This document shows positions 5,550-22,677 of a DNA stretch of 42,572 nt, one piece after another (position 1 is the first letter of the stretch; each line of letters starts with the position of its first letter). The translations under genes and the position numbers were made by a program. Source of the stretch: Microcaldota archaeon (GTDB lineage: Archaea; Micrarchaeota; Micrarchaeia; Micrarchaeales; CABMGC01); assembly GCA_028867335.1 (NCBI GenBank), contig JAGWGN010000008.1:1-42572 (forward strand), given 5' to 3'. The notes beneath the pieces were generated by a model. It saw nothing but the letters and a program-made list of their open reading frames with translations, did no database searches and had not been told where the DNA came from.

Positions 5550-6214
5550 CAAACGCCTGCCTCTTCAGCGGTGGCAAGGACTCTACTTTTGCATTGCACA
5601 AGGCGCTGGCAAGCGGCATCGAGATAGACCTACTCATTACAGTCCAGACCCAAAACGATTTCAGCTACATGTTCCACTACCCGAACATTGAGGCGACAAA
5701 GCTGCAGGCCGAGGCGCTTGGAATACGGCAGGTTATAGTCAAAACAAAGGGTCTCAAGGAGGATGAGGTGCGGGACCTCGAGCAGGCGCTTATCGACAAT
5801 GACGTGAAGCTGTTTGTGAGCGGCGCGATCGCAAGCGAGTACCAAAAGGAGAGGGTTGAGGGAATCGCAAAGCGCAACAAGATGAAGTCAATTGCGCCAC
5901 TCTGGCACATAGACCCCGAAGTCGAACTCAAAGAGATAGTGGAAAACTATGAGGTCATAATATCCCAGGTGAGCGCGGAGGGGTTTGACAGGAGCTATAT
6001 CGGGGCAAGGATAGACGCGCAGATGGTGGAGAGGCTCAGGGAGCTCAAGGCAAAGCGAGGGATAAACCTGTTATTTGAGGGAGGCGAGGCTGAGACATTC
6101 GTGCTCAACGCACCGCTGTTCAAGAAAAGGATAGTGATTGAGGAATCGGAGACGCTCTGGAACGGGAGCGTGGGCAGATTTGTCATAAAGAAGGCAAAGC
6201 TGACTGAGAAATAG
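5546..6214 (+). CDS. Diphthine-ammonia ligase-like ATP pyrophosphatase (Dph6 family)
   Basis: N-terminal SGGKDSTFALHKAL PP-loop; GGEAETFVLNAPLFKKRIVI typical of the family. Confidence 0.85.
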   Translation: MTNACLFSGGKDSTFALHKALASGIEIDLLITVQTQNDFSYMFHYPNIEATKLQAEALGIRQVIVKTKGLKEDEVRDLEQALIDNDVKLFVSGAIASEYQKERVEGIAKRNKMKSIAPLWHIDPEVELKEIVENYEVIISQVSAEGFDRSYIGARIDAQMVERLRELKAKRGINLLFEGGEAETFVLNAPLFKKRIVIEESETLWNGSVGRFVIKKAKLTEK

Positions 6215-6270
6215 TCAAAAAAAAGGGAAAAAATCGGAGATTTAATAAACACTTTGAGGCAAATAATATT

Positions 6271-6543
6271 ATGGATGACATTAAGATCTGGAAGGAAAAT
6301 GGATGGTATATTGCACATATCCCTGCGTTGGGCGTAGTAGACCAGGCAAAAACTTTGAAAGGGCTAAAGAAGGAGTTAAATGAGGCAATAGAGCTCTCGC
6401 TTGAAAGCATAATTATTGACGATTTGAAATTCACAGGAAGCAGAGTAAACAAACTGAGAAGTTTGCTCGCAAGCGCGGTTATAAACAAGATTGATGGCAT
6501 TATTTCTAAAAAGGAAGGTAAAACGATTATGGCAAAGGCATAA
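6271..6543 (+). CDS. HicB-like antitoxin
   Basis: IKIWKENGWYIAHIPALGVVDQAKTLKGLKKELNEAIEL, partial RNase H-like HicB fold; adjacent HicA. Confidence 0.7.
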   Translation: MDDIKIWKENGWYIAHIPALGVVDQAKTLKGLKKELNEAIELSLESIIIDDLKFTGSRVNKLRSLLASAVINKIDGIISKKEGKTIMAKA

Positions 6544-6553
6544 GGTCGGAATT

Positions 6554-6772
6554 ATGGCCAGGCTTGTCATAAAAGATAGGGAACTGCTTAAGATTCTTAC
6601 TAAAAGATTTGGATTCACAGTGCTCCGACAAAAAGGTAGTCATGTGCGATTATCAGATGGAGGGCATAGAGTTACAATCCCGCTTCATAATAGAGAATTA
6701 AAAGAGGGGACACTTCATGCCATATTGGAACAAGCAGGCATCAGCAAGGAGGAACTCATAAAAGAGCTTTAA
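6554..6772 (+). CDS. HicA-like mRNA interferase toxin (YcfA/dsRBD-like)
   Basis: FGFTVLRQKGSHVRLSDGGHRVTIPLHNRELKEGTLHAILEQAGISKEEL, HicA signature incl. GSH. Confidence 0.88.
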   Translation: MARLVIKDRELLKILTKRFGFTVLRQKGSHVRLSDGGHRVTIPLHNRELKEGTLHAILEQAGISKEELIKEL

Positions 6773-6777
6773 GGGGA

Positions 6778-7695
6778 TCAGAACTTTATGCACTTAAGTA
6801 TCTTGCCGGCAGCCTGCCGAGGGTCCTTTGATTCAGATAGGATTTTCTGAAACTCCTTGTAGTTCTCAGGCACGCTTAGCTTCTCGTCCAGGCGGTTTTT
6901 GAAAAGCGAAAAAAGCTCGTCGCGGATCTCGCTTTCCAGCTGCAGCTTTCTTCGCTCCGCGGTTGTTGGGGCTTTATCGCTTATTATTTTGGTGAGCACA
7001 TCAAAGAGTTCCCCAATCCCCTTTCCGGATTTCGTTGAAATGCTAAGCACTTCCTTGCCCGAGAAACTTAAGTGGTATTTCAACGAGTCGTATAGCTGCG
7101 ATGCGCCCCTTAGGTCCGACTTGTTTGCAAGGTAGATGTCCCCTATCTCGGTGAGGCCTGCCTTTATCACCTGTATTCCGTCCCCCGTATTTGGGCTGAA
7201 GACCACAGCAACAACATCCGCAATACCCCTGATGTCGGTTTCAGTCTGTCCTGCCCCAACGCTCTCTATTATTATCAGATTAAATCCTGCGTATTCCAGC
7301 AGGCGTATGTCATCCCTTAGCGCAAGGGATAGTGCGCCAGTCGCCTCACCTGAGGGTATGCTGTGCACGAAGATCTTGGCGTCGGTAAGCTGCTGCATCC
7401 TCACTCGATCCCCCAAAAATGAGCCGCCAGTTATCTTGCTTGAAGGATCAACTGCAAGAACGGCAACTTTGTAGCTTTCGGAATCGAATTTCTGGGCGAG
7501 CTTGTTGATCATAGTGCTCTTGCCAGAACCTCCTGGACCAGTAACCCCGATTCTTACGCTCTCCTTGGGATCCCTAAACAGCTCCCTAATTATTGCGGTG
7601 GAATTGGAATCGGCAGCCTCTATGCTTCGTATCGCCTTTGCGATGTAGCGCCTTTCGCCTCGCTTTATGCCCTCTAGGATCTCCCTTGAATCCAT
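6778..7695 (-). CDS. MeaB/ArgK-family P-loop GTPase
   Basis: GVTGPGGSGKSTMINKL, VDPSSKITGGSFLGDRVRMQQL, ESVGAGQTETDI. Confidence 0.93.
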   Translation of the reverse strand: MDSREILEGIKRGERRYIAKAIRSIEAADSNSTAIIRELFRDPKESVRIGVTGPGGSGKSTMINKLAQKFDSESYKVAVLAVDPSSKITGGSFLGDRVRMQQLTDAKIFVHSIPSGEATGALSLALRDDIRLLEYAGFNLIIIESVGAGQTETDIRGIADVVAVVFSPNTGDGIQVIKAGLTEIGDIYLANKSDLRGASQLYDSLKYHLSFSGKEVLSISTKSGKGIGELFDVLTKIISDKAPTTAERRKLQLESEIRDELFSLFKNRLDEKLSVPENYKEFQKILSESKDPRQAAGKILKCIKF

Positions 7696-7746
7696 AATGG
7701 GTTAGAAGTGCCACCCTTTATAACATTTATCCACGGAATGTATACT

Positions 7747-8964
7747 ATGGCATTATCCGAAAGGAGCAAGTACGCATTCAATCCAATAGACGAGGACAAC
7801 GAGCTTGCGGAAAGGATCGTAAAATCAGGAAAGAAGGTCATCCAGCTCAACAGGGGGGACATCTCGCTCTATTTTCCTACGCCCAAGTACATAGAAGATG
7901 CATACGTCAAGGCGATACGCGAAAATAGGACCTCCTACACGCGCTCAAGCGGAATTCCGGAGTTGATTGATGCTGTCAGGGGCAGATACAAGAGAATGTT
8001 CAATCTGAACCTCAAGGAAGAGGACATAATAACAACGCAGGGAGTCTCTGAGGGGCTCTATTTCCTCAACGCGTCACTGCTCAATCCGGGAAACCACGCG
8101 ATAATCTTTCGGCCATACTACACGCAGTACATACCGAACATCGAGCTTGCGGGCGGAAAGGCATACTACTTAGACTACGATGAAAAGAAAGAATGGGACA
8201 TAGACACCGATGAGCTTGAGAACCACATAAAGAGGATGAAAAAGAAGAGGGGGATAAAGTACATAATGATCACCAACCCGAACAACCCCACAGGGACTGT
8301 TTTGGGGAGGGGGACGCTTGAGAAAATAGTGGATCTTGCCAACGAGCACAAACTCATACTTGTCAGCGACGAGATATATGATGAGATAGTATACAACGGC
8401 GCAAAGTTCACAAGCATCTCGCAGCTTGCAAAGGGGGTTCCGCATGTAATACTTAATGGAGCGTCAAAGAACCTTGACGCGACCGGATTCAGAATAGGAT
8501 TCATGATAGTCCCAGGGGAAGACAGGGTGTCAATGGAACTAAAGAGAAAGTTTGCAGACTTCGCGTCGGTTCGCGTCTCCGTAAATGCGCCAGCGCAGTA
8601 TGCGATTGCCGAGGCGATAAGAAACGTCAAGGAGCACAAGAAGGCGATAGGTTACATGGTGAGGGAGATCGAGGATCGGGTGAACTTCGCGGTGAAGAGG
8701 CTCGGGGAGAACCCTTACCTTGAGATGGTCAGGCCAAACAGCGCCTACTATATCCTGCCGAGAATAGATTTAAAATCATTGAACTACAAGAGTGATAAGG
8801 AGTTCGTTGACGAACTTCTAAGAAGCAAGCTTGTCCAGATAACCAGGGGATCCGGATTTGGCGCAAAGAGCCACATAAGAATCGTGGCGCTACCTGACAA
8901 ACAGACCCTTGGCGAAGCAATAAATAGGCTAAACGAGTTTTGTATGAAGCGCTCAGGCAGGTAA
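7747..8964 (+). CDS. Pyridoxal-phosphate aminotransferase, class I/II
   Basis: ITNPNNPTGTVLGRGTLEKIVDLANEHKLILVSDEIYDEIVY; LNGASKNLDATGFRIGF (PLP Lys). Confidence 0.95.
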   Translation: MALSERSKYAFNPIDEDNELAERIVKSGKKVIQLNRGDISLYFPTPKYIEDAYVKAIRENRTSYTRSSGIPELIDAVRGRYKRMFNLNLKEEDIITTQGVSEGLYFLNASLLNPGNHAIIFRPYYTQYIPNIELAGGKAYYLDYDEKKEWDIDTDELENHIKRMKKKRGIKYIMITNPNNPTGTVLGRGTLEKIVDLANEHKLILVSDEIYDEIVYNGAKFTSISQLAKGVPHVILNGASKNLDATGFRIGFMIVPGEDRVSMELKRKFADFASVRVSVNAPAQYAIAEAIRNVKEHKKAIGYMVREIEDRVNFAVKRLGENPYLEMVRPNSAYYILPRIDLKSLNYKSDKEFVDELLRSKLVQITRGSGFGAKSHIRIVALPDKQTLGEAINRLNEFCMKRSGR

Positions 8965-8969
8965 AAGAT

Positions 8970-9040
8970 GGAGGTATAGTCTAGTGGTAGGACGCGACCT
9001 TTACACGGTTGAGGCAGGAGTTCAATTCTCCTTACCTCCA
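8970..9040 (+). tRNA. tRNA-Val (anticodon UAC)
   Basis: Acceptor GGAGGTA/TACCTCC plus discriminator A; anticodon arm CGACC-TTTACAC-GGTTG; T arm AGGAG-TTCAATT-CTCCT; CCA not encoded. Confidence 0.95.
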
Positions 9041-9103
9041 TAGAACTCAGAGTAATGGTTCTCTAGGCTTAGTCTTATATATGTTTCCCAGAACATAATA
9101 AAT

Positions 9104-10300
9104 GTGGAAGACGAGAAAAAAAGGCTGCAAAGGAAAATCGACGACCTACTTGCCAGGATAAAGGAGCGCAAGATGCCGGCGGCGAATGTGAGCGCGGTTA
9201 ACAACTGGATAAACTTCATGCGGGCCAAGGGCTCAAATCCAAATACGATACTCAAGAACCTTTACTACATGTCATGGTTTCTAAATTCCCTTTCCGCAAA
9301 AACAGACATCACAAAAGCGACTCGGCAGGAGATTGAGTCGGCCATGGCGAAGATTGAGAGTTCGGACTACTCGGGCACCACAAAGGGAAACATCAAGGTA
9401 ATAATAAAGGCGTTCTACAAGCACTGCCTCGGGGAGGACCTCTACTATCCCAAGCAGATCGCATGGGTCAAGTCCTCAAAAAGCCGCAAAAAGATCCTGC
9501 CTGAGGACATCTTGAGCGAGGAGGAGGTCCTGAAGATGATAGAGGCATCGGGCAACATGAGGGACAAGGCGATAATAGCGGTGCTCTACGATTCCGGAAT
9601 AAGGGTCGGGGAGCTTTTAAGCCTCAGGATAAGAAGCGTCGATCTTTCAGGCGAGCCGGCGCACATAATTGTTGACGGCAAGACAGGCATGAGGAAGATA
9701 CCGATACTCTTCAGCGCCCCGTACCTTTCAAATTATCTGGAGCTTGTCAAGGGCAAGAAGCACGACGAATTCCTCTGGACAGGAATAGGCACTTGGACGG
9801 CATCCAACAAGCTGGTGGATAGCTCCGCAATAAGGAAGCTGCTTAGGATAGTTGCAAAGAAGGCGGGAATACATAAGAGGATGTATCCGCACCTCTTCCG
9901 CCACAGCAGGGCGACATACTACGCGAACAGGCTTACCGAGCAGCAGCTCAAGGCGCTCTTCGGATGGACTGGGGACAGCACGATGGTCAGCACTTACGTC
10001 CATATGAGCGGAAGGGACATCGATGACGCGGTGATGCAGACATACGGCAAAATCCCAAAGGAGATGAGTGCGCCGAAGCTGATCGAGAAGGTATGCCCAA
10101 GGTGCAGGTACGCAAACGGCATCGACTTCCTGCACTGCAAGCGCTGCGGCGCCTCCCTTGAGATGGGCATGACAATGAAGGGAGAGCAGGTGAACAACGC
10201 GCTTAGGGATTCGCTCCTGGAGTCGGCCAAGGACCCGAAGTTCCTAGAGGATTTGATAAATCTACTTTCGCAAAAGAAGGGTGGAAAAAGGAATAGGTAA
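9104..10300 (+). CDS. Tyrosine site-specific recombinase (XerC/D/A-like integrase) with C-terminal zinc ribbon
   Basis: DSGIRVGELLSLRI, KTGMRKIPI, PHLFRHSRATYYANR, STYVHMS catalytic motifs; CPRCRYANGIDFLHCKRCG zinc ribbon; GTG start 64 nt after the tRNA. Confidence 0.93.
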   Translation: MEDEKKRLQRKIDDLLARIKERKMPAANVSAVNNWINFMRAKGSNPNTILKNLYYMSWFLNSLSAKTDITKATRQEIESAMAKIESSDYSGTTKGNIKVIIKAFYKHCLGEDLYYPKQIAWVKSSKSRKKILPEDILSEEEVLKMIEASGNMRDKAIIAVLYDSGIRVGELLSLRIRSVDLSGEPAHIIVDGKTGMRKIPILFSAPYLSNYLELVKGKKHDEFLWTGIGTWTASNKLVDSSAIRKLLRIVAKKAGIHKRMYPHLFRHSRATYYANRLTEQQLKALFGWTGDSTMVSTYVHMSGRDIDDAVMQTYGKIPKEMSAPKLIEKVCPRCRYANGIDFLHCKRCGASLEMGMTMKGEQVNNALRDSLLESAKDPKFLEDLINLLSQKKGGKRNR

Positions 10301-10304
10301 TGAT

Positions 10305-10982
10305 ATGGCCGAGAATGTTTTTCATAGGAGCCTGCTTGCAATAAGCAGCGTAAGCCTCATCGGGAGCTGCGAGACCAGGTTCATGGAGGCGATGGTAGGC
10401 AAACCTAAAGTCACCAAGCAGATGCAGATCGGCAAGGTGATGCACGAGAAACTTGCCGCTCCGCTTCCTAAGATAACAATTGAGGAGGTTATAGAGAAGA
10501 TAAAGTCCGGGGGAACGGGAGGCGTCAGGGAGCTGCCTGTGACGGATAAGATAAACAGGCTAATCGGAAGGATCGACCAGCTGGAGTTGATGGGTAGGAA
10601 CGCCAAGGGCGTCAACAATGCACTCATAATAGATGACAAATACCCCAAGTTCAAATTCAATGAAATGCCGCTCTACTACAAGCTGCAGCTATCCGCCTAT
10701 GCGGTTGCAATAAAGAACTCAGAGGTATTTGGCAGCATATGCGATATAGTTGGCCTTAGGTTGATTTCACGGGAACCAGGATCTCATGTGATAACTGGCA
10801 CTTTTGATGTTGAGGGAGAGGAACTTGCGCAGTGCAAGTCAAATGTCGCAGAAGCGGCAAATGAGGCATGGCAGCTCTATGATCGCAAGAGGGAACCCGA
10901 GCACAGGAGGTTCGATGTCGGGAAGGGGGAGTGGGTCAGGTGCTATTGCAGCTTGGGGAAGGCGGGTTTGGGGTGGTCATAA
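10305..10982 (+). CDS. Cas4/RecB-like PD-(D/E)XK nuclease, possibly altered at its C-terminus
   Basis: N-terminal Cys (GSCETRF), IGRIDQLEL...ALIIDDKYPKF (D...DxK core), YYKLQLSAYAVAI (QxxxY), C-terminal RCYCS. Confidence 0.7.
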   Translation: MAENVFHRSLLAISSVSLIGSCETRFMEAMVGKPKVTKQMQIGKVMHEKLAAPLPKITIEEVIEKIKSGGTGGVRELPVTDKINRLIGRIDQLELMGRNAKGVNNALIIDDKYPKFKFNEMPLYYKLQLSAYAVAIKNSEVFGSICDIVGLRLISREPGSHVITGTFDVEGEELAQCKSNVAEAANEAWQLYDRKREPEHRRFDVGKGEWVRCYCSLGKAGLGWS

Positions 10983-11947
10983 GCACGCAGCAACTCGATG
11001 ACCTACCTCAGGTGTTCGCCAACTCTAGCGCGGTTACCATGTTGCACAACTACAGGGACATCAGCATATACGCCAAGAACGCGTTCAACCTGAATCCTTT
11101 TGAGATTGCATACCTTAGGTCCGCGGCGCAGGGCGAGGCCCTTGTCTTTGACCGCCATCTCGCGCAGCTCGGGCAGTGGTGGCCCGAATATGTGAAAATT
11201 AATCCACTTACAAACGAGGAGAAAGTGAGGCTAGCCGGAATGAATTCCGAATATGCCCCGGAACTCATAAATGAAGCGCAACAGAAGATATCTTTGGGCA
11301 ATGCAGTGACGAAGGCAAGCAAAAGCGTGAAGGCTCATACAATACCGTTGCCTGAAGGGGCGCCAACACCCGGAGAACACGCCGGGCTTCTGGGGATATA
11401 TCGCAATCAGGGCAAGGACCTTGGCACAATCGTCAACTTCATCAGGCAAAAGGGCTGGCTCACAAGTGCCAACTCATTATACGGATACAAAGGAAAACCA
11501 AGTATATTCGAAACACTGGCAAGCAGAGGAATGGTGAAAGTAGTGAATAACATGTATGTGCTCACCGAAGCAGGAATGGTGTGGGTGGATCCAAATGTGA
11601 TTGTATCCGTTCAGTCGGATAAGCTGGGATCGGAGCAGCACAAGCAGCTCCTCATAAAGCTGGTAGACAAACTGCATGAGGACAACATGCTGACAGTATC
11701 AAGAAAGGAAAAGCACTCATTCGACATAGTCGCATATCCGGTCAATGCAAAGAAGAAGAGCCTCTGGGACACAAACGGCGCAAAGGGGTATGAAGCGCAG
11801 ACTAGTGCAAGAACGGATTCGGTAAAAGAGAACATGCACAAATCAGAGAAGTGGAAAATGCCGACGGTGTGGGCTGCAGACAATGCGGAAGTGCTTGAAG
11901 GGATAAAGGTCCAGACAGCCCGTAAGAACGAGTACCTGCTGGTGTAG
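10931..11947 (+). pseudogene. C-terminal fragment of a HerA/VirD4-type ATPase fused to a winged-helix/nuclease-like tail; Walker A and B region missing
   Basis: LGEGGFGVVISTQQLDDLPQVFANSSAVTMLHNYRDISIYAKNAFNLNPFEIAYLRSAAQGEALVFDRH resembles the motif after Walker B in HerA/TraG ATPases; then a winged-helix-like stretch and FDIVAYP...YEAQTSARTDSVKENM. Confidence 0.6.
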
Positions 11948-12272
11948 TCGATATTGAAGGGCCAGAGGCTCCAATCATGGGGACCGAAGCCTCCAACCCC
12001 ATTTAACATATGCGGGTAGTCATATTAGTAAGCTACGATTATGGTACAAATCGATAGATTAGATTTATATAGTAAAACGGACAACATTAATTTGTACAGT
12101 GTTGAATATGAAGAATTTAATCGTCAATAATAAGAACAAGAGCATAATTGTGGTGAAATTTTCAAATCCTAATTGCCCGCGAATGCTTGCGAACGAGAAC
12201 TTTGTGGCATTCAGGGATGACTATAGTGGCAAAATGAGGATAAAAAATATCAAGCTAATGAAAAAACTGAGC

Positions 12273-13304
12273 TCATTTTGATTCTTTCTCAAATAATCTT
12301 TTGTAAGATTCGTATTCTTCCAAATGGAACGGCCATTTGCCGATTATCAAATAAGTCAGCATAGCCCTGTCTATGCGTGGGCTCTCTACTGCCCATAATC
12401 GCTGAATAAGATCAGGACCTCGCTTGGATAGTCTTTCCCCGTCTTCAAATGTGCAAAGATACATGCCGTCATACGCTCCGGTTACGTCTGCAATAAAGCA
12501 ATAGTCGTTGGTTATCTCACTGGCGGTTTCGTTGAGGAGTTCTTTGGCAAAATTTATGAAAAATTTGTGATGGTGTTCCTTGGTGGGAATCAGACGAAGA
12601 CCATATGCCGATATTATCTTTTTGTCTGGTTTCTGAGTAAGTGCAGAAAACTTCTTTATTATCCCTTTTTCTTTCAATTTTCTTAGGATGTAAACAACAT
12701 GCATCGGGTTTTTGATTTTGCATTTTTCACATATCTCTTTTAGCCTCGCTCTAGAATTATTATTTAGGAGCATCAGTACTTTTTTCTCTGAATTTGACAA
12801 TATGGGACTTTCTTTAATGAGTTCGCTCCTCAAAGCTAAAAAGCCTATCGATTTTTCATCCATGATTGATGATTTGAATACTGGTCTGTATTCTCCCAAA
12901 TCCATCCGCAGCCTCCATTCCCAAGCCTTGAAATCTTTGGAGGTTATGCCCACCACATACAACAAAAGATCAAAATCGCCAGTGGCAAGATATGCGTCCT
13001 GAACGAAAATGTCCTTCGTGAACCTCTCCCTCAAAAAATCTATTGATGGGGCCGGATTCTCAAATTTGATTGTTATAATCCTTCCCTCTGTGAAGCCTAG
13101 TGCGGCCTCGTCTAGTTCTAAGGTATATTCAATGTCGTATCTTTTCTCGAGCTCCTTAAGGGCGGCGGCGATATTATGATATGAAATATTGAACCTTCTC
13201 CCCAACTCTTGGAGTGAAACCCTAGAATCCTTGTAAATCTCTCGCAGTATATCGTATGGCAATCCGCTTTTAACATATTCTTGCGTTTCTCGTTTAGCTG
13301 GCAT
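12273..13304 (-). CDS. Lrp/AsnC-like transcriptional regulator with two HTH units
   Basis: KDSRVSLQELGRRFNISYHNIAAALKELEKR and NNNSRARLKEICEKCKIKNPMHVVYILRKLKEKGIIKKFSA. Confidence 0.75.
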   Translation of the reverse strand: MPAKRETQEYVKSGLPYDILREIYKDSRVSLQELGRRFNISYHNIAAALKELEKRYDIEYTLELDEAALGFTEGRIITIKFENPAPSIDFLRERFTKDIFVQDAYLATGDFDLLLYVVGITSKDFKAWEWRLRMDLGEYRPVFKSSIMDEKSIGFLALRSELIKESPILSNSEKKVLMLLNNNSRARLKEICEKCKIKNPMHVVYILRKLKEKGIIKKFSALTQKPDKKIISAYGLRLIPTKEHHHKFFINFAKELLNETASEITNDYCFIADVTGAYDGMYLCTFEDGERLSKRGPDLIQRLWAVESPRIDRAMLTYLIIGKWPFHLEEYESYKRLFEKESK

Positions 13305-13431
13305 AAATGCATCTCAAAATATCATTTATATTTTAATATTATAGGATGTTTTTCTCATTATTAGTATTTTTTTAACAATAACTATATATACAACAAAACT
13401 TATAATACTTATCGAAGTGTGGGGACACAAC

Positions 13432-13545
13432 ATGGCGAACAAATTCGTAAAAGAATCTGGCCATGTGGCTTGTTCTAAGATTCACTCCCTGAATCCCCCA
13501 AGAACCTCCCAAGGGTCCCCACTACTTTCCCTCAAGTCATATTGA
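13432..13545 (+). CDS. Possible 37-aa microprotein (weak)
   Basis: ATG-TGA frame MANKFVKESGHVACSKIHSLNPPRTSQGSPLLSLKSY; TATA-like CTTATAATA about 30 nt upstream; not in ORF track. Confidence 0.3.
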   Translation: MANKFVKESGHVACSKIHSLNPPRTSQGSPLLSLKSY

Positions 13546-13559
13546 ACCTAGTGGATACC

Positions 13560-13715
13560 ATGGACTATCACGAAACAACCAGGAAGATGCTTGCGGCATC
13601 CAAGGCGATGAAAGAGGATTTACCAAAGGTGTACGACTTCCTTCCCCGCAATGACTACTACAGACTCAAGCAACTGCTAGATGAGGCAGAGTCAATACTC
13701 GCCAAACATCAATAG
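13560..13715 (+). CDS. 51-aa microprotein, paralog 1
   Basis: MDYHETTRKMLAASKAMKEDLPKVYDFLPRNDYYRLKQLLDEAESILAKHQ; similar to the next ORF. Confidence 0.6.
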   Translation: MDYHETTRKMLAASKAMKEDLPKVYDFLPRNDYYRLKQLLDEAESILAKHQ

Positions 13716-13723
13716 GTAATCCC

Positions 13724-13882
13724 ATGAACTATTACGCATATATTAGAAGGCGCGTGGCTGACCTGTGCGGCCTGAGATTCAAAATCCAAAAGCTCTTTGC
13801 ATTCGTGAACTATTCAGATTTTGACAGACTGCAGTCGCTGATGAACGAAATGGAGCAGATACTGAAGAAGTACGACAATTAG
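13724..13882 (+). CDS. 52-aa microprotein, paralog 2
   Basis: MNYYAYIRRRVADLCGLRFKIQKLFAFVNYSDFDRLQSLMNEMEQILKKYDN; aligns with the preceding ORF. Confidence 0.6.
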   Translation: MNYYAYIRRRVADLCGLRFKIQKLFAFVNYSDFDRLQSLMNEMEQILKKYDN

Positions 13883-13890
13883 GTGTTGAC

Positions 13891-14031
13891 ATGAAGCTTG
13901 GATTGGAAAACTTTAGATCTTTGGTGTATGGGGAGCCGGCGGAAACGCAGAAGAAGACGTATCTTTGCTGGAAGTGCGGCAAGAACTATGTTGATCCTTC
14001 AGACTACCTTTGGCATATTCAGTCCTGTTGA
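13891..14031 (+). CDS. 46-aa C2HC-type zinc-finger microprotein
   Basis: MKLGLENFRSLVYGEPAETQKKTYLCWKCGKNYVDPSDYLWHIQSC, CxxC-x13-HxxxC. Confidence 0.65.
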   Translation: MKLGLENFRSLVYGEPAETQKKTYLCWKCGKNYVDPSDYLWHIQSC

Positions 14032-14051
14032 ATCCTGAATCGGTGGGGGAT

Positions 14052-14315
14052 ATGGAAAAAGAAAAAGGATTTTTGCTGTTAAAGCCAAAAAGATTAAAGG
14101 ATGCGGGCAAAATTGCAAGGGCAATCGCGATGTGCAAGGGCGTGAAGGAGGTTTTTTTGACTAGCGGAGAATACGGGTTTGTCGCGGCAATCGAGACTAA
14201 TCTTAATGGAGGCATTCAAAATATTGGCAAAATGGTGGAAAAAGGAACCAGATGCGTGAAAGCCAGCACAGTAATCAAACATTACACCTACAGGAAAAAA
14301 TGGGATGGGCGTTGA
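14052..14315 (+). CDS. Stand-alone Lrp/AsnC ligand-binding (RAM-like) domain protein
   Basis: CKGVKEVFLTSGEYGFVAAIETNLNGGIQNIGKMVEKGTRCVKASTVIKH. Confidence 0.6.
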   Translation: MEKEKGFLLLKPKRLKDAGKIARAIAMCKGVKEVFLTSGEYGFVAAIETNLNGGIQNIGKMVEKGTRCVKASTVIKHYTYRKKWDGR

Positions 14316-14387
14316 AAAGAATCTACTAAAGGAATTATAGGCAAAAATAAAGAGCTTAATCCCTTCCAATGGGGCAACGGTGTAAAA

Positions 14388-15401
14388 ATGGAAAAAAATG
14401 TAGATGAAGTAATCTCTAGAAAACTTGGCCATTCAGAAGCGTTGAATGTGAGGTTAGATAAAACAGTGCCAACAGGGTTAAAATTAACAAAAAGAATATG
14501 CAACGAAAACTGCGTATTCAGTAAAAATATGGCGGTTGCCTGCCACGATGACAATTCGTATCGCGGGACAGGTACGGCCATATCAAATACCGAGTTTATA
14601 GGTGCAGTGAAAAAACTATTTGCTGCTACAGGTAAGAAGCAAATAATACATATTGCAGGGGATGGTGAACCAACATTATTTAGGGGAGAGCTGCTTGATT
14701 TAATTAAAAAGTTGAGGGAGTTGCCATATGTTAGTTCCATAAAATTAACAACCAATGGAACGTTGATATCAAATGGTAATCCAGATCTGGCCACACAATT
14801 AAAACGGGCTGGATTGGACAGCGTAAACATATCCCTTCACTCCTTGGATTCGGGAGAATTCAATAGAGTAACAGGACTTAATTCGTTGGGTGAAGTTTTG
14901 AAGGGAATTGATTGTGCCATAACCTCTGGGTTAAGGACTACTATTAATTGTGTTGTGCGCAAAGAGACTTTTGGGGAGGTAGAAGATTACATAAGACTAT
15001 CCGCAGCCAAAGGGGTAAAAATTAAGTTTCTCTTCATGATCGGAGGCGCAGATCAAGCTTACTCTAATAATCTTATAGAGAAAATGGTGGCCTTGCTCTC
15101 AAAGAAGACTACGAAAATATATGACTATGTAGATGGATATCATGCTGAAAAGATTTTTTTCATAGGGGATGCAATAATTGAGGTAAAAGATCCAATAACA
15201 AATAATTGCCCAAATATGAAATGTTTAGTGAGGGATAAGTGTTTAGAGACGTGTAGATATTTTCTACGCATCACTCCTACGGGTTCACTACAGCCTTGCG
15301 GTGTTCGAAACGATAATATTATTGATTTGCTTTCAGAATATACATCAGATAAGACTATAGTATCAGCAATAAAAAGTGGGGGGAAACTACTTGGTGGATA
15401 A
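14388..15401 (+). CDS. MoaA-like radical SAM protein with SPASM/MoaA-like C-terminal Cys cluster
   Basis: RICNENCVFSK (CxxxCxxS), HIAGDGEPTLF, KLTTNGTLI, GLDSVNISLHSLD, C-terminal CPNMKCLVRDKCLETCRYFLRITPTGSLQPCGVR. Confidence 0.85.
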   Translation: MEKNVDEVISRKLGHSEALNVRLDKTVPTGLKLTKRICNENCVFSKNMAVACHDDNSYRGTGTAISNTEFIGAVKKLFAATGKKQIIHIAGDGEPTLFRGELLDLIKKLRELPYVSSIKLTTNGTLISNGNPDLATQLKRAGLDSVNISLHSLDSGEFNRVTGLNSLGEVLKGIDCAITSGLRTTINCVVRKETFGEVEDYIRLSAAKGVKIKFLFMIGGADQAYSNNLIEKMVALLSKKTTKIYDYVDGYHAEKIFFIGDAIIEVKDPITNNCPNMKCLVRDKCLETCRYFLRITPTGSLQPCGVRNDNIIDLLSEYTSDKTIVSAIKSGGKLLGG

Positions 15402-15402
15402 G

Positions 15403-15933
15403 ATGAGAGAGATTGAAACGAAAATTGTGGATTTTGATGAGGAAGATGTGGAGAGGTCATTAAATAAAAATGCGGAATTTGTCTCCGAGAACCTACAAAG
15501 AAGATGGGTTTTTGATCTAAGAGGTGAGGGAAGACACGATTTTGATAAGTTTATAAGAGTGAGAACAAACGGGGACAAAACCACCATAGCATACAAGTTT
15601 AGAGAAGGGAAGGGGGTCGATAACACCGAAGAGTTAGAGGTGAATGTTGATAATTTTGATACCACAGCAGAGATTTTCACAAGACTGATCGATAAGAGAT
15701 ATTATCAGGAGAATAAAAGGAAGACATACAGATACGGAAAAGTTGAGATAACGATAGATTATTGGCCTAAAATCCCGCCAGTAATAGAAATTGAGGGAAA
15801 TAGTGAGGGGGAGATAGAGCAGGCAATTGCCGAACTTAAAATTAAGGGGAGGAATCTTGGAAATATGAGCTGGGAGAAGGTATATGCGTCGTACGGCTTA
15901 GATATTCACTCCTTCAAAATTTTGAAATTCTAG
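15403..15933 (+). CDS. CYTH-domain triphosphatase / class IV adenylate cyclase-like protein
   Basis: N-terminal ExExK (EIETK), FIRVRTNGDKTTIAYKFREG, YGKVEITIDYWPKIPPVIEIEGNSE. Confidence 0.88.
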   Translation: MREIETKIVDFDEEDVERSLNKNAEFVSENLQRRWVFDLRGEGRHDFDKFIRVRTNGDKTTIAYKFREGKGVDNTEELEVNVDNFDTTAEIFTRLIDKRYYQENKRKTYRYGKVEITIDYWPKIPPVIEIEGNSEGEIEQAIAELKIKGRNLGNMSWEKVYASYGLDIHSFKILKF

Positions 15934-15941
15934 ATGATTTT

Positions 15942-16562
15942 ATGCCAAAAATAGTAATTGAGGGAGTCGATGGTTCTGGAAAGACCACCATCGCCCAATC
16001 TCTGAGTACCAAGATAGGTGGTAATTTAATAGCGTCATCACAGGTTTCATTCCTTCCTGCAATAAGAAAATATACAAATTTGGACACTGCAAACACAATA
16101 GCCCGCTTTGGATACTACCTTGCCGTAAATAAATATACTACAGACATTTTAGCAAACGGTGATTCGAAAACCGATGTCTTCGATAGATACATCTATTCCA
16201 CATTGACCACACACATCGCATTGGATACATTGTATAATGACGGAAGGAATATTAAACACATAAAAGAAATTTTTGAACAAGAAAGTCAAAACTTCCCAAC
16301 GCCCGATACTGTTGCTTTTCTGTATGTAAACCCAGAGGTAAGAAAATTGAGGGTTAATCTGCGAGATGTGAGGGCAGACAGCAAACTAGATTTCAATAGT
16401 TCATTTGCTATAGAAACAGAAAAATTACTCAAGGAACTTGCGAAGGATATGAGAGGGGAGGGGATAACAAATGTGGTTGAAATCGATACAAGTAACAAAA
16501 CAGTTGAGGAATCGATGAACATAATACTTAAATCGCATTTGGGATTGATTCAACGTGTTTGA
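15942..16562 (+). CDS. Thymidylate kinase-like nucleoside monophosphate kinase
   Basis: IVIEGVDGSGKTTIAQSL (Walker A), VFDRYIYSTL (DRY motif). Confidence 0.85.
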   Translation: MPKIVIEGVDGSGKTTIAQSLSTKIGGNLIASSQVSFLPAIRKYTNLDTANTIARFGYYLAVNKYTTDILANGDSKTDVFDRYIYSTLTTHIALDTLYNDGRNIKHIKEIFEQESQNFPTPDTVAFLYVNPEVRKLRVNLRDVRADSKLDFNSSFAIETEKLLKELAKDMRGEGITNVVEIDTSNKTVEESMNIILKSHLGLIQRV

Positions 16563-16574
16563 GAAGGTGGTTTT

Positions 16575-17162
16575 ATGCAGAAAAAATTAGGCAAAGATGA
16601 AAAAATAGAAATGCGCGCACTAGAGATCATGCGCGGAATTAATTTGCCTTACCACAACATTGAACATGTAATAAAAGTTTATGAAAGCGCGAGGAATCTT
16701 TGTAAAAATGAGGGCATTTCCGAAGCAGATACTCGTTTAGTCTTGATAGCCGTATTATTCCACGATACGGGCTTTTTAGTTAGGCCGGATGGTGGGAATC
16801 ATGAAGCGGCAAGTGCCCACATTGCAAATACGTCAATGGATTCCCTTCGCTATATGGATACAGAGATAATCCAGGTAAAAAAACTTATTATGGCAACAAA
16901 GTTTCCGCATAATCCGAAGACGCTTTTAGAGAAAATTGTCTGCGACGCAGATCTGGCAATAGTAGGCAGTGACGGGTTTTGGGAGCAAAATGAAAATTTA
17001 AGAAAAGAACGTGGAATCGAGAACATACATGAATGGATTGAGCAGCAATTAAAATTTATGGAAGAACATACTTACTTTACAAAATCTGCAGACAATGTGT
17101 TTGGTGAGAAAAAACGAAAGCATGTCTTTGAGATGAGGCTGAAGCTTCAAAAAGGTGGTTGA
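16575..17162 (+). CDS. HD-domain metal-dependent phosphohydrolase
   Basis: LPYHNIEHVIKVYESA, VLFHDTGFL, ICDADLAIVG. Confidence 0.88.
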   Translation: MQKKLGKDEKIEMRALEIMRGINLPYHNIEHVIKVYESARNLCKNEGISEADTRLVLIAVLFHDTGFLVRPDGGNHEAASAHIANTSMDSLRYMDTEIIQVKKLIMATKFPHNPKTLLEKIVCDADLAIVGSDGFWEQNENLRKERGIENIHEWIEQQLKFMEEHTYFTKSADNVFGEKKRKHVFEMRLKLQKGG

Positions 17163-17507
17163 ATGGAATTCTGTGCAAAATGTGGAACAAAACTTAAGAT
17201 TAAGGTTGCTGGAAAGGACGATGGAAATTTAACTTGCAAGTCGTGCGGGTACAGCGAGGATAAAAAGAAGGAGATGAAAGCAGTTGTTAGGGATCCTGAG
17301 GAACATGTACAAATACATGTAGTAGAGAATGTTAAAGAAGGAAAGGCTATAGTTGAACATGAATGTGGCAGATGTCAGTCAAATGAAGCTTATATCGGAG
17401 AGATTCCCCCAAACAGATTTAACGATGAGCAAACAGTCATTGTTTATACCTGTGTAGACTGTAACAAAACAGAGCGTGTACAAACATCCGGAGGAAATGG
17501 TCTGTGA
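17163..17507 (+). CDS. TFS/RpoM-like (TFIIS-type) zinc-ribbon transcription factor
   Basis: N-terminal CAKCGTKL...CKSCGYS ribbon and C-terminal CGRCQSNEAYIGEIPPNRFNDEQTVIVYTCVDCNKTE; DE dyad retained. Confidence 0.8.
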   Translation: MEFCAKCGTKLKIKVAGKDDGNLTCKSCGYSEDKKKEMKAVVRDPEEHVQIHVVENVKEGKAIVEHECGRCQSNEAYIGEIPPNRFNDEQTVIVYTCVDCNKTERVQTSGGNGL

Positions 17508-17650
17508 TGGGTAGCTTCTCGTTGTTAAAACAAGATATTGTAGATGCAGAAGATGTTTTTACTGGTTTTGTTTCTTGCCAAAAGATGGTCCTATATTACT
17601 TACAGAAACAAATGCCACAAGCCATTCAGGAAGGCGAGTGTGTAGTATAT

Positions 17651-18244
17651 TCAAAGGTAGCGCGCTTCCCTTGCCCCCATCGCGACAACAATTTGCGCAG
17701 TGAGCCGCTTTTCGATGTTCAGGCTCTCCCAGTAACTTTCGATGATGAGCGGCTTGGCATCTCTGCAACCCTTCAGGAGCTTTTGGTGCACCGGTTCCAG
17801 AATGACCGTCCTTTTGGGCAGGAGGTCATACAGGTTGCCCCTGCACGGGATGGACACTACTCCTAGCTCATGCGCCGCCGCAACCCTATGGTTCCCGTCA
17901 ATCATCACGAAATATATGGCGCTTCCGTCCCTTAGCCTAAAGCCGGTGAGAATCGGAGGCTTCTTCTCAAGGAGATCCATGAATTTGTCCTTCGGCAAGC
18001 TAAGGAGCCTTTCCAGCCTCTCGTTCTCCCATGCCTCGAACCCTATGTCCCCTACATTTACCCTGCGGACCCGGTCTCTGCACTTCAGCTTCGCATTGTA
18101 GGCTACGTTACAGAAGAACCGTCCGAATGCCTTTTGTCGCTGCTCCCCTCCTGCCCCGAGCAGCTCTCGCTTGAGCTCTGCTATTCTTGGGCCGCCCATC
18201 TCCGCCGCCGTGACCTTCTTCACCCTCTTGAAAATGTCCAACAT
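17651..18244 (-). CDS. ParB/sulfiredoxin-fold protein
   Basis: YFVMIDGNHRVAAAHELGVVSIPCRGNLYDLLPKRTVILEPVHQKLLKG; start at MLDIFKRVKK. Confidence 0.65.
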   Translation of the reverse strand: MLDIFKRVKKVTAAEMGGPRIAELKRELLGAGGEQRQKAFGRFFCNVAYNAKLKCRDRVRRVNVGDIGFEAWENERLERLLSLPKDKFMDLLEKKPPILTGFRLRDGSAIYFVMIDGNHRVAAAHELGVVSIPCRGNLYDLLPKRTVILEPVHQKLLKGCRDAKPLIIESYWESLNIEKRLTAQIVVAMGAREARYL

Positions 18245-18282
18245 ACGCACTAATGCTGTGCTTTTCTGATTCAAAACCTTTG

Positions 18283-18415
18283 CTGGCGAGCGCCGCCATG
18301 GCGAGCCCGAAGGGCGAGGACGCGGCGCGAGATATGCAATTGCATATTGGAACGCGGGACGAGCCGCGCTAAAGCGCATCGAACGAAGAGAGATGCGCGG
18401 GCCGCGGCGAGGCAA
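18283..18415. repeat. GC-rich cluster of inverted repeats (possible structured RNA or centromere/origin-like site)
   Basis: CGCGGC(18321-18326)/GCCGCG(18363-18368) enclosing the 16-bp palindrome ATATGCAATTGCATAT (18332-18347); GCCC-GAA-GGGC (18305-18315); GCGCATC/GATGCGC (18374-18380/18392-18398). Confidence 0.5.
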
Positions 18416-18887
18416 TAGAGTTCTGGATCATCTTTTACTTAAGCCTAAGGCAAAGCTTAGGCTAAGCTTTTGGTGGATATGTTGGTGGAGGGGGCGGTCA
18501 AGCCGTTGATGTGGGCTAAGCGGGTGGCTAAATTGGTGGTGAAGGCTGCGGTGCTTATGGAGGCTGTGATCTGTCCAAGGCCATAGTCAGTAACGACTAT
18601 GCGCTCGCCTCGCCCTCCTAGGCTAGGGCTCGGCTCGCGGCTTGGCCAGAATATCTGCAAGTCCATTATTGCAGGAAGAGTGTCTTATCGTCTGGGCACA
18701 TTCTCTCCTTAGAATGCAAATCTCCTCATCGGTCGGGAAGAGTTTCAGGGAGAGTTATGGCTGAAGAATAGAGTTTTAGTTCTTAATCGCCTATATAGGA
18801 AACGCGGGATATGCAGGTCAACATTTGGGCACAATTACCCTCGAAACTACATGAGTCTCTAGGCGTCGTGTCCCTTACCTCCATTTC

Positions 18888-19145
18888 TCAATCTCTCTTG
18901 TCGTATGGTGAAAGGGTGACAAGCTGCCATTTCACCTTGTGCTCACAGCATATTAGGCCCGGAACCTTCGTTCCTGCGGCGAGGAAAAGCCCGCTGGTGG
19001 CCTTTTCCACCACAGAGCAGCCCTTATCCTCGTCTTTATTCGAGTGGGCGACATAAACGTAATCCCCGGAGGTTGTGACTTTTTGCCCCGACTCTATTAT
19101 CTCACCAAGTTTTGTCTTGGTCTGATTGTTCTTGTTCCTAAACAT
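18888..19145 (-). CDS. Small protein, weakly YjzC-like
   Basis: 85 aa ORF GEIIESGQKVTTSGDYVYVAHSNKDEDKGCSVVEKATSGLFLAAGTKVPG...VKWQLVTL. Confidence 0.5.
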   Translation of the reverse strand: MFRNKNNQTKTKLGEIIESGQKVTTSGDYVYVAHSNKDEDKGCSVVEKATSGLFLAAGTKVPGLICCEHKVKWQLVTLSPYDKRD

Positions 19146-19163
19146 AATCCCATCTCTTAAGCG

Positions 19164-19742
19164 TCAGATTACTTTGGTTGCCGGCTTCTTTGAAGGCTCT
19201 AGATTGAAGTGGCTGCGTATGAGCTTTGCCGCCTCGTTGGGGCTTAGCTGACTGTTCTCTATTGTGAAGCTGCCATCTATTGGCGCGACCTTTGGCAGAT
19301 CGTAGCTCCTGAGGAACTCCTTTAGTTGATCGGCATCCCGAATCTTGCCAAAGTCCTGCCTTGATTTTCCGTCGACCCGCTCTATAAGAACCTCCCTTGG
19401 TGCGTAAAGGTAGACAAAGCAGACCTTTCCCCCGTTCTGCTCTATCCTAAACCTCAGATTGTCGGCGGTCTGCTGGTGGCTCCCCTTTATCCATGCCGAG
19501 GTAAATATCGTGCTTATCTGCTCCCTTGCCGCATTCTCGAGCAGCTCAATTCTGTACTTGTTTACAAGCCTGTTGAATGTCGGGGTGCCGAACTCGAAGA
19601 TAGTCTTGACAAAGTCGACCGAGACATGGTTATGGAAGAGCTTGTAGTTTGTCATCGTGGCAAGCTCCATCGCGACTGAGAGCTTTCCCACTGCCGGGGG
19701 TCCGTAGATGACCACAAGCTTCATCGGATTTGCAGTGCTCAT
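19164..19742 (-). CDS. P-loop kinase-like NTPase
   Basis: MKLVVIYGPPAVGKLSVAMELA; ATGA overlap with the upstream HD gene. Confidence 0.75.
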   Translation of the reverse strand: MSTANPMKLVVIYGPPAVGKLSVAMELATMTNYKLFHNHVSVDFVKTIFEFGTPTFNRLVNKYRIELLENAAREQISTIFTSAWIKGSHQQTADNLRFRIEQNGGKVCFVYLYAPREVLIERVDGKSRQDFGKIRDADQLKEFLRSYDLPKVAPIDGSFTIENSQLSPNEAAKLIRSHFNLEPSKKPATKVI

Positions 19743-20374
19743 AGACTTCTCAGCGCCCTCTTCAAGTTTTCCCTTGCCCTCGCCTCGTAGAAGAGTGCGA
19801 AGAATTCTGTTGAATAGATTGACTGCCTCTCCAAAAATCCTTTTAGCACATTCGAGCGGCCTTTCTTGTAGTCCGCAGCCGGAACCCACGAATACTCCTT
19901 TCTCACATTCTTCTCGTATCTGTCGAAGATAACTTTCGGCTGCGCGAGTATGGAGAGGTCAATGTCAACCATGTATCTTGTGTCCCAATCGTAGATCGGG
20001 TTACCTGTGTGTTTTGTGGCAAGAATCATCCGTTCTACGCTTCGTATAAACTTCTCGCCTTGCCCCAAACCCTGTGCGAGCGACGTGGCCCATTCGGCGC
20101 TTTTCTCCTCGTTGTCCTTCCTCTTTGAGTCGTAGATTGCATCGTGGAAGTAGAGAGCGAATTCAATTGCCTTCTTGTCGTTTACCAGGTGCCCGACCTT
20201 GTCTAGTTCATTTAGGCATGAGGCTATGTGGTCAAGATTGTGGTAAGGCCTTGAGGAGTATGAGTGCGAAAGCGAAGAATAATGCGGAGCGTGGCCGTTA
20301 TCTGCTCCGCCAAGCCCCTTCCAGAGTGTCGCAAATCTGCTCTCCAAAGCATCCGCACTTAGAGTCTTCTCCAT
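19739..20374 (-). CDS. HD-domain phosphohydrolase
   Basis: RPYHNLDHIASCLNEL, ALYFHDAIYDS, MVDIDLSILA. Confidence 0.85.
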   Translation of the reverse strand: MEKTLSADALESRFATLWKGLGGADNGHAPHYSSLSHSYSSRPYHNLDHIASCLNELDKVGHLVNDKKAIEFALYFHDAIYDSKRKDNEEKSAEWATSLAQGLGQGEKFIRSVERMILATKHTGNPIYDWDTRYMVDIDLSILAQPKVIFDRYEKNVRKEYSWVPAADYKKGRSNVLKGFLERQSIYSTEFFALFYEARARENLKRALRSL

Positions 20375-20440
20375 GTTCTCGGTATAAGTAGAAATTTCCC
20401 TTTATTTAAGTATATTGTGTTGCTTTGTTTTCTTGATCTT

Positions 20441-21781
20441 TCACTCGAACTTGATGCCCCTTAAAAAGTTGATTATCCTCTGGTCCATCATGATGTGGCG
20501 CTTCTCTATCTTCTTTGTGAGGACTATCCCCTCAAGGGAGGTGCACCTGCTCAGCGCCACGTAGAGCTGGCCGTAGGCGAATGTCCCGCTGCCTACATCG
20601 ATTATCACGTGCCTAAACGTCTTTCCCTGGCTCTTGTGGATAGTTATCGCCCATGCAAGCATTATTGGGTACTGAACAAAGCTGCCCGCAACCTTTGAGT
20701 TGAGCTTGAGGGAGGTCTTGTCGTATGAGGACTTGAACATCTCCCACTTGTGCGGATTCACCTCTACGATCGGACCGTCCGCGAGCTCGACGAGCACCTC
20801 ATCGCGCATTGTTATCCCAGGGGTTATCGCGGTTATCGTGCCGACGCTTCCGTTCACCCACAGGTCGTTCTTGTCATTGTTTAGCATCATCACCTGCGCG
20901 CCAACCTTTATTGCAAGGTTCTCCTCTGCCGGGAAGCTCTTCTTCTCGAAATCCCCATCGTACTTTGCGGCGTAGGTGTACTCCCTCCCTGGAAGCCTCT
21001 TCATCTGCGCGCTGTTAATCTCCTCGGCAAGCTTGTTTGTCGTCGTGAGGGAGATGTACTTGTCAGAGACATTTGGTGAGAAGAACGGGTTGAAGCGGCT
21101 GTTAATCTCCTCGAGGTCCTCCTCGGTTGCGGTGTTGTTTCTGATTGCGTTGAGCAGGCCTATGAAGTGCTCGTCTGTGTGGCGGTAGTTCTTCTTTAGC
21201 TCTATGTATGTTATCGGAAGCTTCTCGAATGAATGGGCATCGAAGAAGTACTCGCTCTTGTAGTTCGCTCGAAACATCTCAAACTCTTCGGATGCGACCA
21301 CCGGCGGGAGCTGGTAGAGATCACCTATGAATATCATCTGCACTCCTCCGAAAGGAAGTGAGCGGTCCTTGCCGTTTAGCCTCATAAACGAGTCTATGCA
21401 GTCAAGCAGGTCGGCGCGGACCATGGAGATCTCATCTATCAGTATCGCGTCGAGCTTTCTGTAGGCCGCCCTGAGGTTGGGGTAGAGGATCTTTGTCGTG
21501 TCAGGGGTGATTCCTGGCTTGAAGTGGAAAAAGGAGTGTATGGTCTGCCCCTTCACGTTCAATGCGGCGACGCCCGTGGGGGCCAAAACGACCACGTTCT
21601 TCTTTGTGTTGCTTTTGAAGTGGTCGATCAGCGTTGACTTGCCCGTACCTGCCCTTCCTGTTATGAAGACGTTCTTTGCCGTCTCGTTCATCAGCGAGAG
21701 TGCCCGCTTGAAGTCGCCGTTCAGCTCGATGTGCAAGCTCTCCTCCTTCCTACTGCTCAGGTTTGCTTGCTCTGGTGCCAT
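20441..21781 (-). CDS. Pif1/RecD-like superfamily 1 helicase
   Basis: FITGRAGTGKSTLIDHF, VLAPTGVAALNVKGQTIHSFF, ILIDEISMVRADLLD, AWAITIHKSQGKTF, YVALSRCTSLEG. Confidence 0.93.
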   Translation of the reverse strand: MAPEQANLSSRKEESLHIELNGDFKRALSLMNETAKNVFITGRAGTGKSTLIDHFKSNTKKNVVVLAPTGVAALNVKGQTIHSFFHFKPGITPDTTKILYPNLRAAYRKLDAILIDEISMVRADLLDCIDSFMRLNGKDRSLPFGGVQMIFIGDLYQLPPVVASEEFEMFRANYKSEYFFDAHSFEKLPITYIELKKNYRHTDEHFIGLLNAIRNNTATEEDLEEINSRFNPFFSPNVSDKYISLTTTNKLAEEINSAQMKRLPGREYTYAAKYDGDFEKKSFPAEENLAIKVGAQVMMLNNDKNDLWVNGSVGTITAITPGITMRDEVLVELADGPIVEVNPHKWEMFKSSYDKTSLKLNSKVAGSFVQYPIMLAWAITIHKSQGKTFRHVIIDVGSGTFAYGQLYVALSRCTSLEGIVLTKKIEKRHIMMDQRIINFLRGIKFE

Positions 21782-21873
21782 GAGTAGAATTTGCCAGAAA
21801 CGTAATATATATCTGATTGGTAAGCGGCCGATATGCTCAATTAAAGTATCTTTGTTTTCTTATTTTTACGGAT

Positions 21874-22677
21874 ATGATGGACCCGATAACGATGCTCGGA
21901 GTTATTGCTTTGGGGCTTGCGGTAGGCGCCATTGTGGGCATGACGAGCGTGGGCTCTGGGGCGCTTATGACTCCGATACTTTTGCTTGACTTTGGGGGAG
22001 TTATAGGCAGAGCGTTTGTTGTTGGGACCGCAACCACCCAGGGGACAATAATCAAGTTCATTGCGAGCGCCAGAAACTATTTTCGAAAGGGCCTTCGCGG
22101 AGAGTACGCTTTCATGATTGCAGTAACCGGAGTTCCGCTTGCGATCTTCGGCGCGTTCTTCAGCAAGTCCTTCATCACCTGGAACCTGTTCCAGCCCCTT
22201 CTTTCCGTGGTGCTCTTGCTGGTTGGAGTCCTGATAATTGTGCAGCTTAGGACAAACAGGATGAACCATACTGAAAACCCTAAGGTCAGCGGAAGGCTTC
22301 GGGCAAAGGGGATGCTGGTCGGCCTTGTTGTGGGGCTTATTGCAGGGCTCACGGGCATTTCCACAGGCTCGCTGCTTGTCTCTGCGCTCATAATACTGCT
22401 AAAATTCCCAAACCGCACTGCGGTGAACATAGCGATATTTGAGGGAGGGCTGATACTTCTTGCTGCGACCTTTGCACAGATCTACCTTGGCAACGTCGAC
22501 TTCCCGATCACCGGGCTGCTGGTTGTGGGGGGAATACCCGGGATTTTGATAGGCAGCCACTTCAAGGACAGGATAAACCAGAGGCTGCTTGGATACGGAA
22601 TCGCAGGAGTCATAATCATAGAATCCGCAAGGACGCTCTCAAGCTTCCTTTTCGGAAAGAGCTTCTTTGTCCTCTAG
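21874..22677 (+). CDS. TauE/SafE (TSUP) family permease
   Basis: Hydrophobic, GLAVGAIVGMTSVGSGALMTPILLL and internal repeat GLVVGLIAGLTGISTGSLLVSALIIL. Confidence 0.88.
   Translation: MMDPITMLGVIALGLAVGAIVGMTSVGSGALMTPILLLDFGGVIGRAFVVGTATTQGTIIKFIASARNYFRKGLRGEYAFMIAVTGVPLAIFGAFFSKSFITWNLFQPLLSVVLLLVGVLIIVQLRTNRMNHTENPKVSGRLRAKGMLVGLVVGLIAGLTGISTGSLLVSALIILLKFPNRTAVNIAIFEGGLILLAATFAQIYLGNVDFPITGLLVVGGIPGILIGSHFKDRINQRLLGYGIAGVIIIESARTLSSFLFGKSFFVL

Follow-up and report, generated by a model that had tools for sequence, protein, structure and literature searches.

The question raised by this locus is what five closely packed genes on a mobile element of a tiny-genome archaeon accomplish together, and whether the nucleotide theme suggested by their domains reflects a single function. 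In the window, by which is meant the whole stretch of 42,572 nucleotides that was analysed, the five open reading frames lie on the forward strand with gaps of 1, 8, 12 and 0 nt, exactly as the original prediction had described them, and the domain names given there are upheld by family searches. The frames encode a MoaA-like radical SAM protein (14388..15401, 337 aa), which was characterised using Pfam, NCBIfam, a seven-member alignment, an AF2 model and a fold search; a CYTH or triphosphate tunnel enzyme (15403..15933, 176 aa); a TMPK/dNK-like kinase (15942..16562, 206 aa); an HD-domain phosphohydrolase (16575..17162, 195 aa); and a TFS-like protein (17163..17507, 114 aa). The domain matches have E values of 5.5e-16 (Radical_SAM), 1.5e-5 (CYTH), 8.8e-12 (Thymidylate_kin), 2.3e-9 (HD) and 1.2e-4 (Zn_ribbon_TFIIS). 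Every frame begins with ATG and is preceded by a GGTG or GATG stretch that resembles a Shine-Dalgarno sequence; a sigma-70 promoter scan is uninformative, since the host is an archaeon. The reading favoured here, to which we assign a probability of roughly 45%, is that the operon is a mobile cassette for producing a modified nucleotide, phosphorylating it and detoxifying it, in which a dedicated cleavage factor protects RNA polymerase.

The operon is AT-rich, as had been noted, with a GC content of 38% compared to 50.5% in the rest of the window. The AT-rich segment spans approximately 12.05-17.6 kb and also contains two genes identified by family searches, each of which is a possible regulator of the operon: one for an Lrp-like protein with two HTH domains (12273..13304, reverse strand), which has a relative at locus L013, and a small Lrp/AsnC ligand-binding (RAM-like) gene directly upstream of the operon (14010..14315, forward strand).

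The location of the operon within a mobile element, which had also been predicted, is supported by an empty site and by a tRNA repeat. The operon is absent from G008, a genome of the same genus that is syntenic with the window up to the last base of a tRNA-Val (TAC) gene (8969..9041, forward strand) and again from position 21913, and the interval between these points measures 1.4 kb in G008 and 12.9 kb in the window. The tRNA gene is the probable integration target: its last 12 nt (9030-9041) recur as an exact copy (CCTTACCTCCAT) at 18873..18884 on the forward strand, a putative far attachment site, and a XerA-like tyrosine integrase, recognised by family searches, is encoded at 9104..10300 on the forward strand. 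When the 9.1-22 kb region was shuffled 2000 times under a first-order Markov model, one shuffle contained this 12-mer; it is the repeat that was found, there being no attachment repeats of at least 16 nt. The operon is probably carried by an integrative element that spans some 9.8 kb (9030-18884) in tRNA-Val, with a boundary that is provisional because the region at 18.9-21.9 kb is also non-syntenic with G008. That region (18885-21900), which is possibly a second insertion or part of a longer element, contains a Dda-like helicase (20441-21781), a P-loop protein and another HD protein. The element itself carries, in 10281-11947 and 17654-18415 (-), genes for a PD-(D/E)XK/Cas4-like protein, for a protein of 338 aa that belongs to no known family, and for a ParB-like protein without a family match, in which the stretch IDGNHR was read by eye; no replication genes of its own were recognised. 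A viral origin is rejected, since no relative was present among the viral contigs scanned, and the phage and plasmid matches are distant (at most 36% identity among the matches listed), the plasmid ones being mostly to MoaA.

The best family of the radical SAM protein over its whole length is MoaA, at about half of the family cut-off or less, with scores of 116.1 bits against 231 for the equivalog model NF001199, 114.1 against 325 for TIGR02668 and 90.8 against 284 for TIGR02666. The AF2 model (pLDDT 82, pTM 0.85) has a MoaA fold, with 1tv7 as its top PDB match (E 2.3e-13, TM 0.62/0.64); the albomycin enzyme AbmM ranks second among the solved folds, viperin-like enzymes with CTP come next, and BlsE is also found in this company, while PDB matches of the sequence profile at E <= 0.001 are to MoaA and AbmM only. 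When the protein is aligned to S. aureus MoaA, the third cysteine of the N-terminal CX3CX2C is seen to be replaced, and none of the seven aligned members retains this canonical cluster cysteine. The seven share an invariant C38-X3-C42-X9-C52 (CX3CX9C), a first motif CNENCxF[D/S/V], and invariant C-terminal cysteines C274, C279, C285, C289 and C304. With the third canonical cysteine missing and low confidence in this loop of the model (pLDDT 54-62 around the cysteines), radical chemistry is a prediction for this protein, and both points weigh against the cassette reading. A literature search returned no report of a CX3CX9C radical SAM motif or of this gene set, and the invariant alternative spacing lends itself well to testing how much departure a radical SAM site tolerates.

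An identification as MoaA proper is rejected, because the scores fall below the cut-offs and a cluster cysteine is replaced. MoaA (GTP 3',8-cyclase) nevertheless remains the best match in both sequence and fold and has a similar C-terminal cysteine region, which in the operon protein has the spacing CX3CX14C; no Moco context was seen. This affinity is a point in favour of a cofactor or signal pathway, in which the protein would act in a MoaA-like manner on GTP or another small molecule, the kinase and the CYTH enzyme would make or break a signal, and the TFS-like protein would be a transcription regulator or the genome's only cleavage factor. The presence of adenylate cyclases among CYTH proteins (TIGR00318) and the lack of a detectable canonical TFS in the window genome fit such a pathway, but sporadic occurrence, a mobile setting and the decay of the copy at locus L034 are ill-suited to a needed cofactor, and the shortfall from the MoaA cut-offs and cluster motif also weighs against it, so that we regard it as unlikely, though deserving of serious attention.

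A viperin or SAND identity is likewise rejected. The CxxxCxxC cluster motif that is the defining feature of viperins (PMC9642334) is absent from all seven aligned members, in agreement with the original prediction, which had seen no recognisable viperin motif, and the viperin models score weakly (27.7 bits against a cut-off of 180 for NF038283; 34.5 bits for PADLOC pVip). The analogy with viperins drawn in that prediction holds at the level of fold, where viperin-like enzymes with CTP are near, and extends to the kinase, which matches the viperin-associated kinase model VakA, but it fails at the level of membership. That the protein fails to qualify as a viperin or as MoaA makes it less likely to be a viperin, without lowering the case that it acts in the manner of a nucleotide-modifying radical SAM system. 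Prokaryotic viperins (pVip, SAND) share with the operon a radical SAM enzyme of near fold and a nucleotide kinase, while the operon adds the CYTH enzyme and the TFS-like factor. A narrower version of the cassette reading would be a viperin-type antiviral defence, with a chain-terminating triphosphate directed against viral polymerases and a TFS-like factor that lets the host polymerase excise it. Residence on a mobile element, the near folds and the pVip and VakA matches are what would be expected of such a defence; the missing motif, viperin scores far below those for MoaA, the absence of known defence genes adjoining the operon, and the presence of disposal enzymes (CYTH and HD) that a true chain terminator would make needless leave it rather improbable.

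The kinase, which has the P-loop GVDGSGKT, exceeds the Pfam domain cut-off but falls below the dTMP-kinase equivalog cut-off (42.4 against 83.25 bits), and its nearest solved relative is a thymidylate/uridylate kinase. It matches PDC-M51B, a component of the PADLOC phage-defence candidate PDC-M51, better than it matches the Pfam kinase model; the partner PDC-M51A is absent among the matches. The CYTH assignment rests on a PF01928 score of 25.4 bits against a cut-off of 23.2 and on an intact EIETK (ExExK) motif which, with the tunnel residues, is invariant in six members; the nearest solved relative is the triphosphate tunnel metalloenzyme Saci_0718. The HD protein is rejected as a core gene, because the neighbourhood comparison places it beside the radical SAM gene only in the window.

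The TFS-like protein has eight cysteines in two zinc ribbons and a catalytic Asp-Glu pair (D88 E89) that is invariant in four members; the TFS-like factor named in the original prediction thus has its catalytic residues in place. Archaeal TFS1 has the same two features, and its transcript cleavage depends on Asp-Glu, whereas the inhibitor TFS4 has lysines instead (PMC5715097); a TFS4-type inhibitor of RNA polymerase is rejected here, since the pair is kept and there is no lysine tip. The operon protein differs from TFS1 in scoring below the TFS_arch cut-off (40.2 against 64.75 bits), in being linked to an operon and in its sporadic occurrence. Of 302 genomes of the Micrarchaeota phylum, 7 have a full-length TFS-like gene, which in each case has a gene for a kinase, a CYTH enzyme or a ribonucleotide reductase as its neighbour; four of the seven lie in radical SAM operons and three in loci L087, L086 and L039. 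In the window genome the operon copy is the sole TFS found, and it might serve a general role, which counts against the cassette reading. As a separate matter, none of the 302 genomes has a TFS above the family cut-off; TFS1 is reported to be conserved throughout the archaea, with Methanopyrus as the sole exception (PMC5715097), and the phylum-wide absence may represent either real loss or strong divergence.

At L086:302-3039, in a genome of the same genus as the window (G009), a ribonucleotide reductase-like gene, recognised by eye, is followed by CYTH and TFS-like genes and thus stands in place of the radical SAM and kinase part. This substitution, together with the phage thymidylate-kinase-like families that match the operon kinase, would suit a different function, in which the radical SAM enzyme and the kinase supply a precursor that is deliberately incorporated into the element's or the host's RNA or DNA, and the TFS-like factor helps a polymerase to read or make the modified strand; a kinase, a triphosphate enzyme and a radical SAM enzyme are also compatible with precursor synthesis. 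The core, however, has no polymerase, glycosylase or transferase partner, and the element has no recognised replication genes, and nucleic-acid modification is in our judgement a poor prospect.

The radical SAM gene is present in 10 of the 302 genomes, and in other genera its homologues (44-50% identity) accompany homologues of the CYTH gene (48-53%) in the same or permuted order. Compared to the arrangement rSAM-CYTH-TMPK-HD-TFS in the window (rSAM denoting the radical SAM gene), L016 has rSAM-CYTH-TMPK-TFS and L009 has TMPK-rSAM-CYTH-TFS, both with a divergent TyrRS-like gene; L034, at 9679-12154 on the same contig as L021, has TMPK(truncated)-rSAM(frameshifted)-CYTH-TFS, a decaying operon of 32% GC in surroundings of 49%; L035 has TMPK-rSAM-CYTH without TFS; and L008 has TyrRS-like/rSAM-CYTH, where the contig ends. 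A second type of locus, L011-L013, has TyrRS-like/rSAM-uridine-kinase-like and is without CYTH and TFS, so that the kinase beside the radical SAM gene alternates between a TMPK-like and a uridine-kinase-like form. A Nudix gene is the neighbour of the TyrRS-like gene at both L012 and L013; in the L011 genome it comes after the rest of the TyrRS-like gene, which lies on a separate contig (L095), and at L010 it begins the arrangement Nudix-TyrRS-like/rSAM. In L071 a radical SAM remnant adjoins CYTH. The recurrent set therefore consists of the radical SAM, kinase, CYTH and TFS genes and, outside the window, the TyrRS-like/winged-helix gene. An order peculiar to this locus, or a set of housekeeping orthologues, which had been named as grounds for abandoning the prediction, is not what is seen for four of the five genes, HD being the exception, and the conserved, nucleotide-themed character of the operon is supported by its recurrence in other genera. 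The labelled relatives are metagenome-assembled genomes (MAGs); calls of absence depend on genome completeness and search sensitivity. Scanning contigs with the alignment yielded eight close relatives, all in archaeal MAGs that carry a Micrarchaeota or Marsarchaeota label (one "Marsarchaeota"), which are not counted as independent because they are mostly on the same contigs as the loci above, and a distant bacterial match of 29% identity (L022); a single-sequence scan of genome contigs gave no matches. That unrelated housekeeping genes are chance neighbours, as the uniqueness of HD and the differences in gene content between loci might suggest, is hardly credible when the radical SAM, CYTH, kinase and TFS genes recur in tight order in other genera and when, of the 10 genomes among the 302 that have TyrRS-like genes, 8 also have the radical SAM gene (Fisher 1e-12, computed, like all significance values here, without regard to phylogeny or relatedness).

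The TyrRS-like protein, which accompanies seven of the radical SAM loci, is a divergent protein that combines a winged helix with a tyrosyl-tRNA-synthetase fold, and its model (pLDDT 72) matches tyrosyl-tRNA synthetases with E 4e-6. Since the HIGH-like stretch shows no conservation and a winged helix is present, it is read as a probable sensor or regulator. Searches of the window's genome, 83% complete, did not reveal the gene.

The operon resembles the clusters for nucleoside antibiotics that combine a radical SAM enzyme, a kinase and a triphosphatase. The closest working precedent, when compared by gene type, is thmABC, the 4'-thiothymidine cluster of Photorhabdus, in which the radical SAM enzyme is accompanied by a nucleoside kinase and by a triphosphatase, thmC, that gives self-resistance (PMC12691670): here too a radical SAM gene adjoins a kinase and a triphosphate-removing enzyme, and all three types are present in the window, L009, L016, L034 and L035. 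Albomycin AbmM/AbmG is a further parallel through the AbmM fold. The operon differs from both in that the kinase is of the TMPK or uridine kinase type, the triphosphatase is a CYTH enzyme, TFS-like and TyrRS-like proteins are added, and the setting is archaeal.

The cassette reading takes as its observed basis the gene set, its conservation, the motifs, the predicted folds and the mobility. From these we infer a substrate, a product, an order of steps and a purpose as follows. The radical SAM enzyme, related to MoaA, AbmM and the viperin-like enzymes, would alter a nucleoside or nucleotide, probably a pyrimidine, given that the partner kinases are TMPK-like or uridine-kinase-like and that a dCMP-deaminase-like gene occurs in relatives. 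The kinase would shift the modified nucleotide between phosphorylation states, and CYTH, with HD in the window and Nudix in relatives, would strip phosphate from the triphosphate form. Analogue built into RNA would stall RNA polymerase, and the TFS-like factor, through its Asp-Glu pair, would prompt cleavage of the 3' end so that the producer survives, much as Gre factors rescue RNA polymerase from oxazinomycin triphosphate (PMC6821320). The TyrRS-like/winged-helix protein in relatives, or the Lrp-like proteins in the window, may sense the state of the system and control the operon, whose likely use would be to attack competitors or viruses or to defend against them.

The evidence counted for the cassette comprises the radical SAM-kinase-CYTH-TFS sets in other genera, folds near the nucleotide-acting MoaA, AbmM and viperin-like enzymes, the alternating kinase types, the CYTH ExExK motif, the TFS-like Asp-Glu pair and the neighbours of the TFS-like genes in the 7 genomes, the dCMP-deaminase-like gene beside TyrRS-like, TMPK and CYTH genes in L091/L092, the mobile setting, and the thmA-C and Gre precedents. 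Counted against it is the absence of CYTH and TFS from the uridine-kinase-type loci and of TFS from L035, which means that the immunity part is not universal. A bolder claim, that the operon represents the first toxin or antiviral system of archaea to be based on a nucleotide analogue, in which a CX3CX9C radical SAM enzyme makes an RNA-polymerase poison, an operon-borne cleavage factor gives immunity and a catalytically dead TyrRS-like protein exerts control, is speculative and on balance doubtful. If the cassette reading holds, rescue of RNA polymerase would be a second immunity principle beyond the triphosphate destruction of the nearest known system, and such chemistry would extend to DPANN archaea whose genomes measure about 1 Mb.

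Wider gene sets in L087, L086, L039 and L091/L092 indicate that the handling genes stay together while the type of radical SAM enzyme can change. In L039 the order is uridine kinase, NifU-like (named by eye) and TFS. L091:6616-10935 and L092:6383-10579 have a row of NifU-like, DUF6036-like nucleotidyltransferase, TyrRS-like/winged-helix, TMPK and dCMP-deaminase-like genes with a convergent CYTH gene; NifU_N was confirmed by family search for the L091 relative. A large cluster surrounds the TyrRS-like gene at L093:1-13283 (G230:C7, of which 1-10000 is L087), with TFS, a different radical SAM enzyme (NF045502, 195 bits against a cut-off of 125), TMPK, a glycosyltransferase, CYTH, a methyltransferase and a Nudix fusion. 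It also encodes an HMG-CoA-synthase-like protein and repeated ParB-like proteins, read by eye, and has the look of a biosynthetic gene cluster within a genome of the Micrarchaeota phylum. RAM-like and Lrp-like genes also lie near the ribonucleotide reductase-CYTH-TFS genes of L086.
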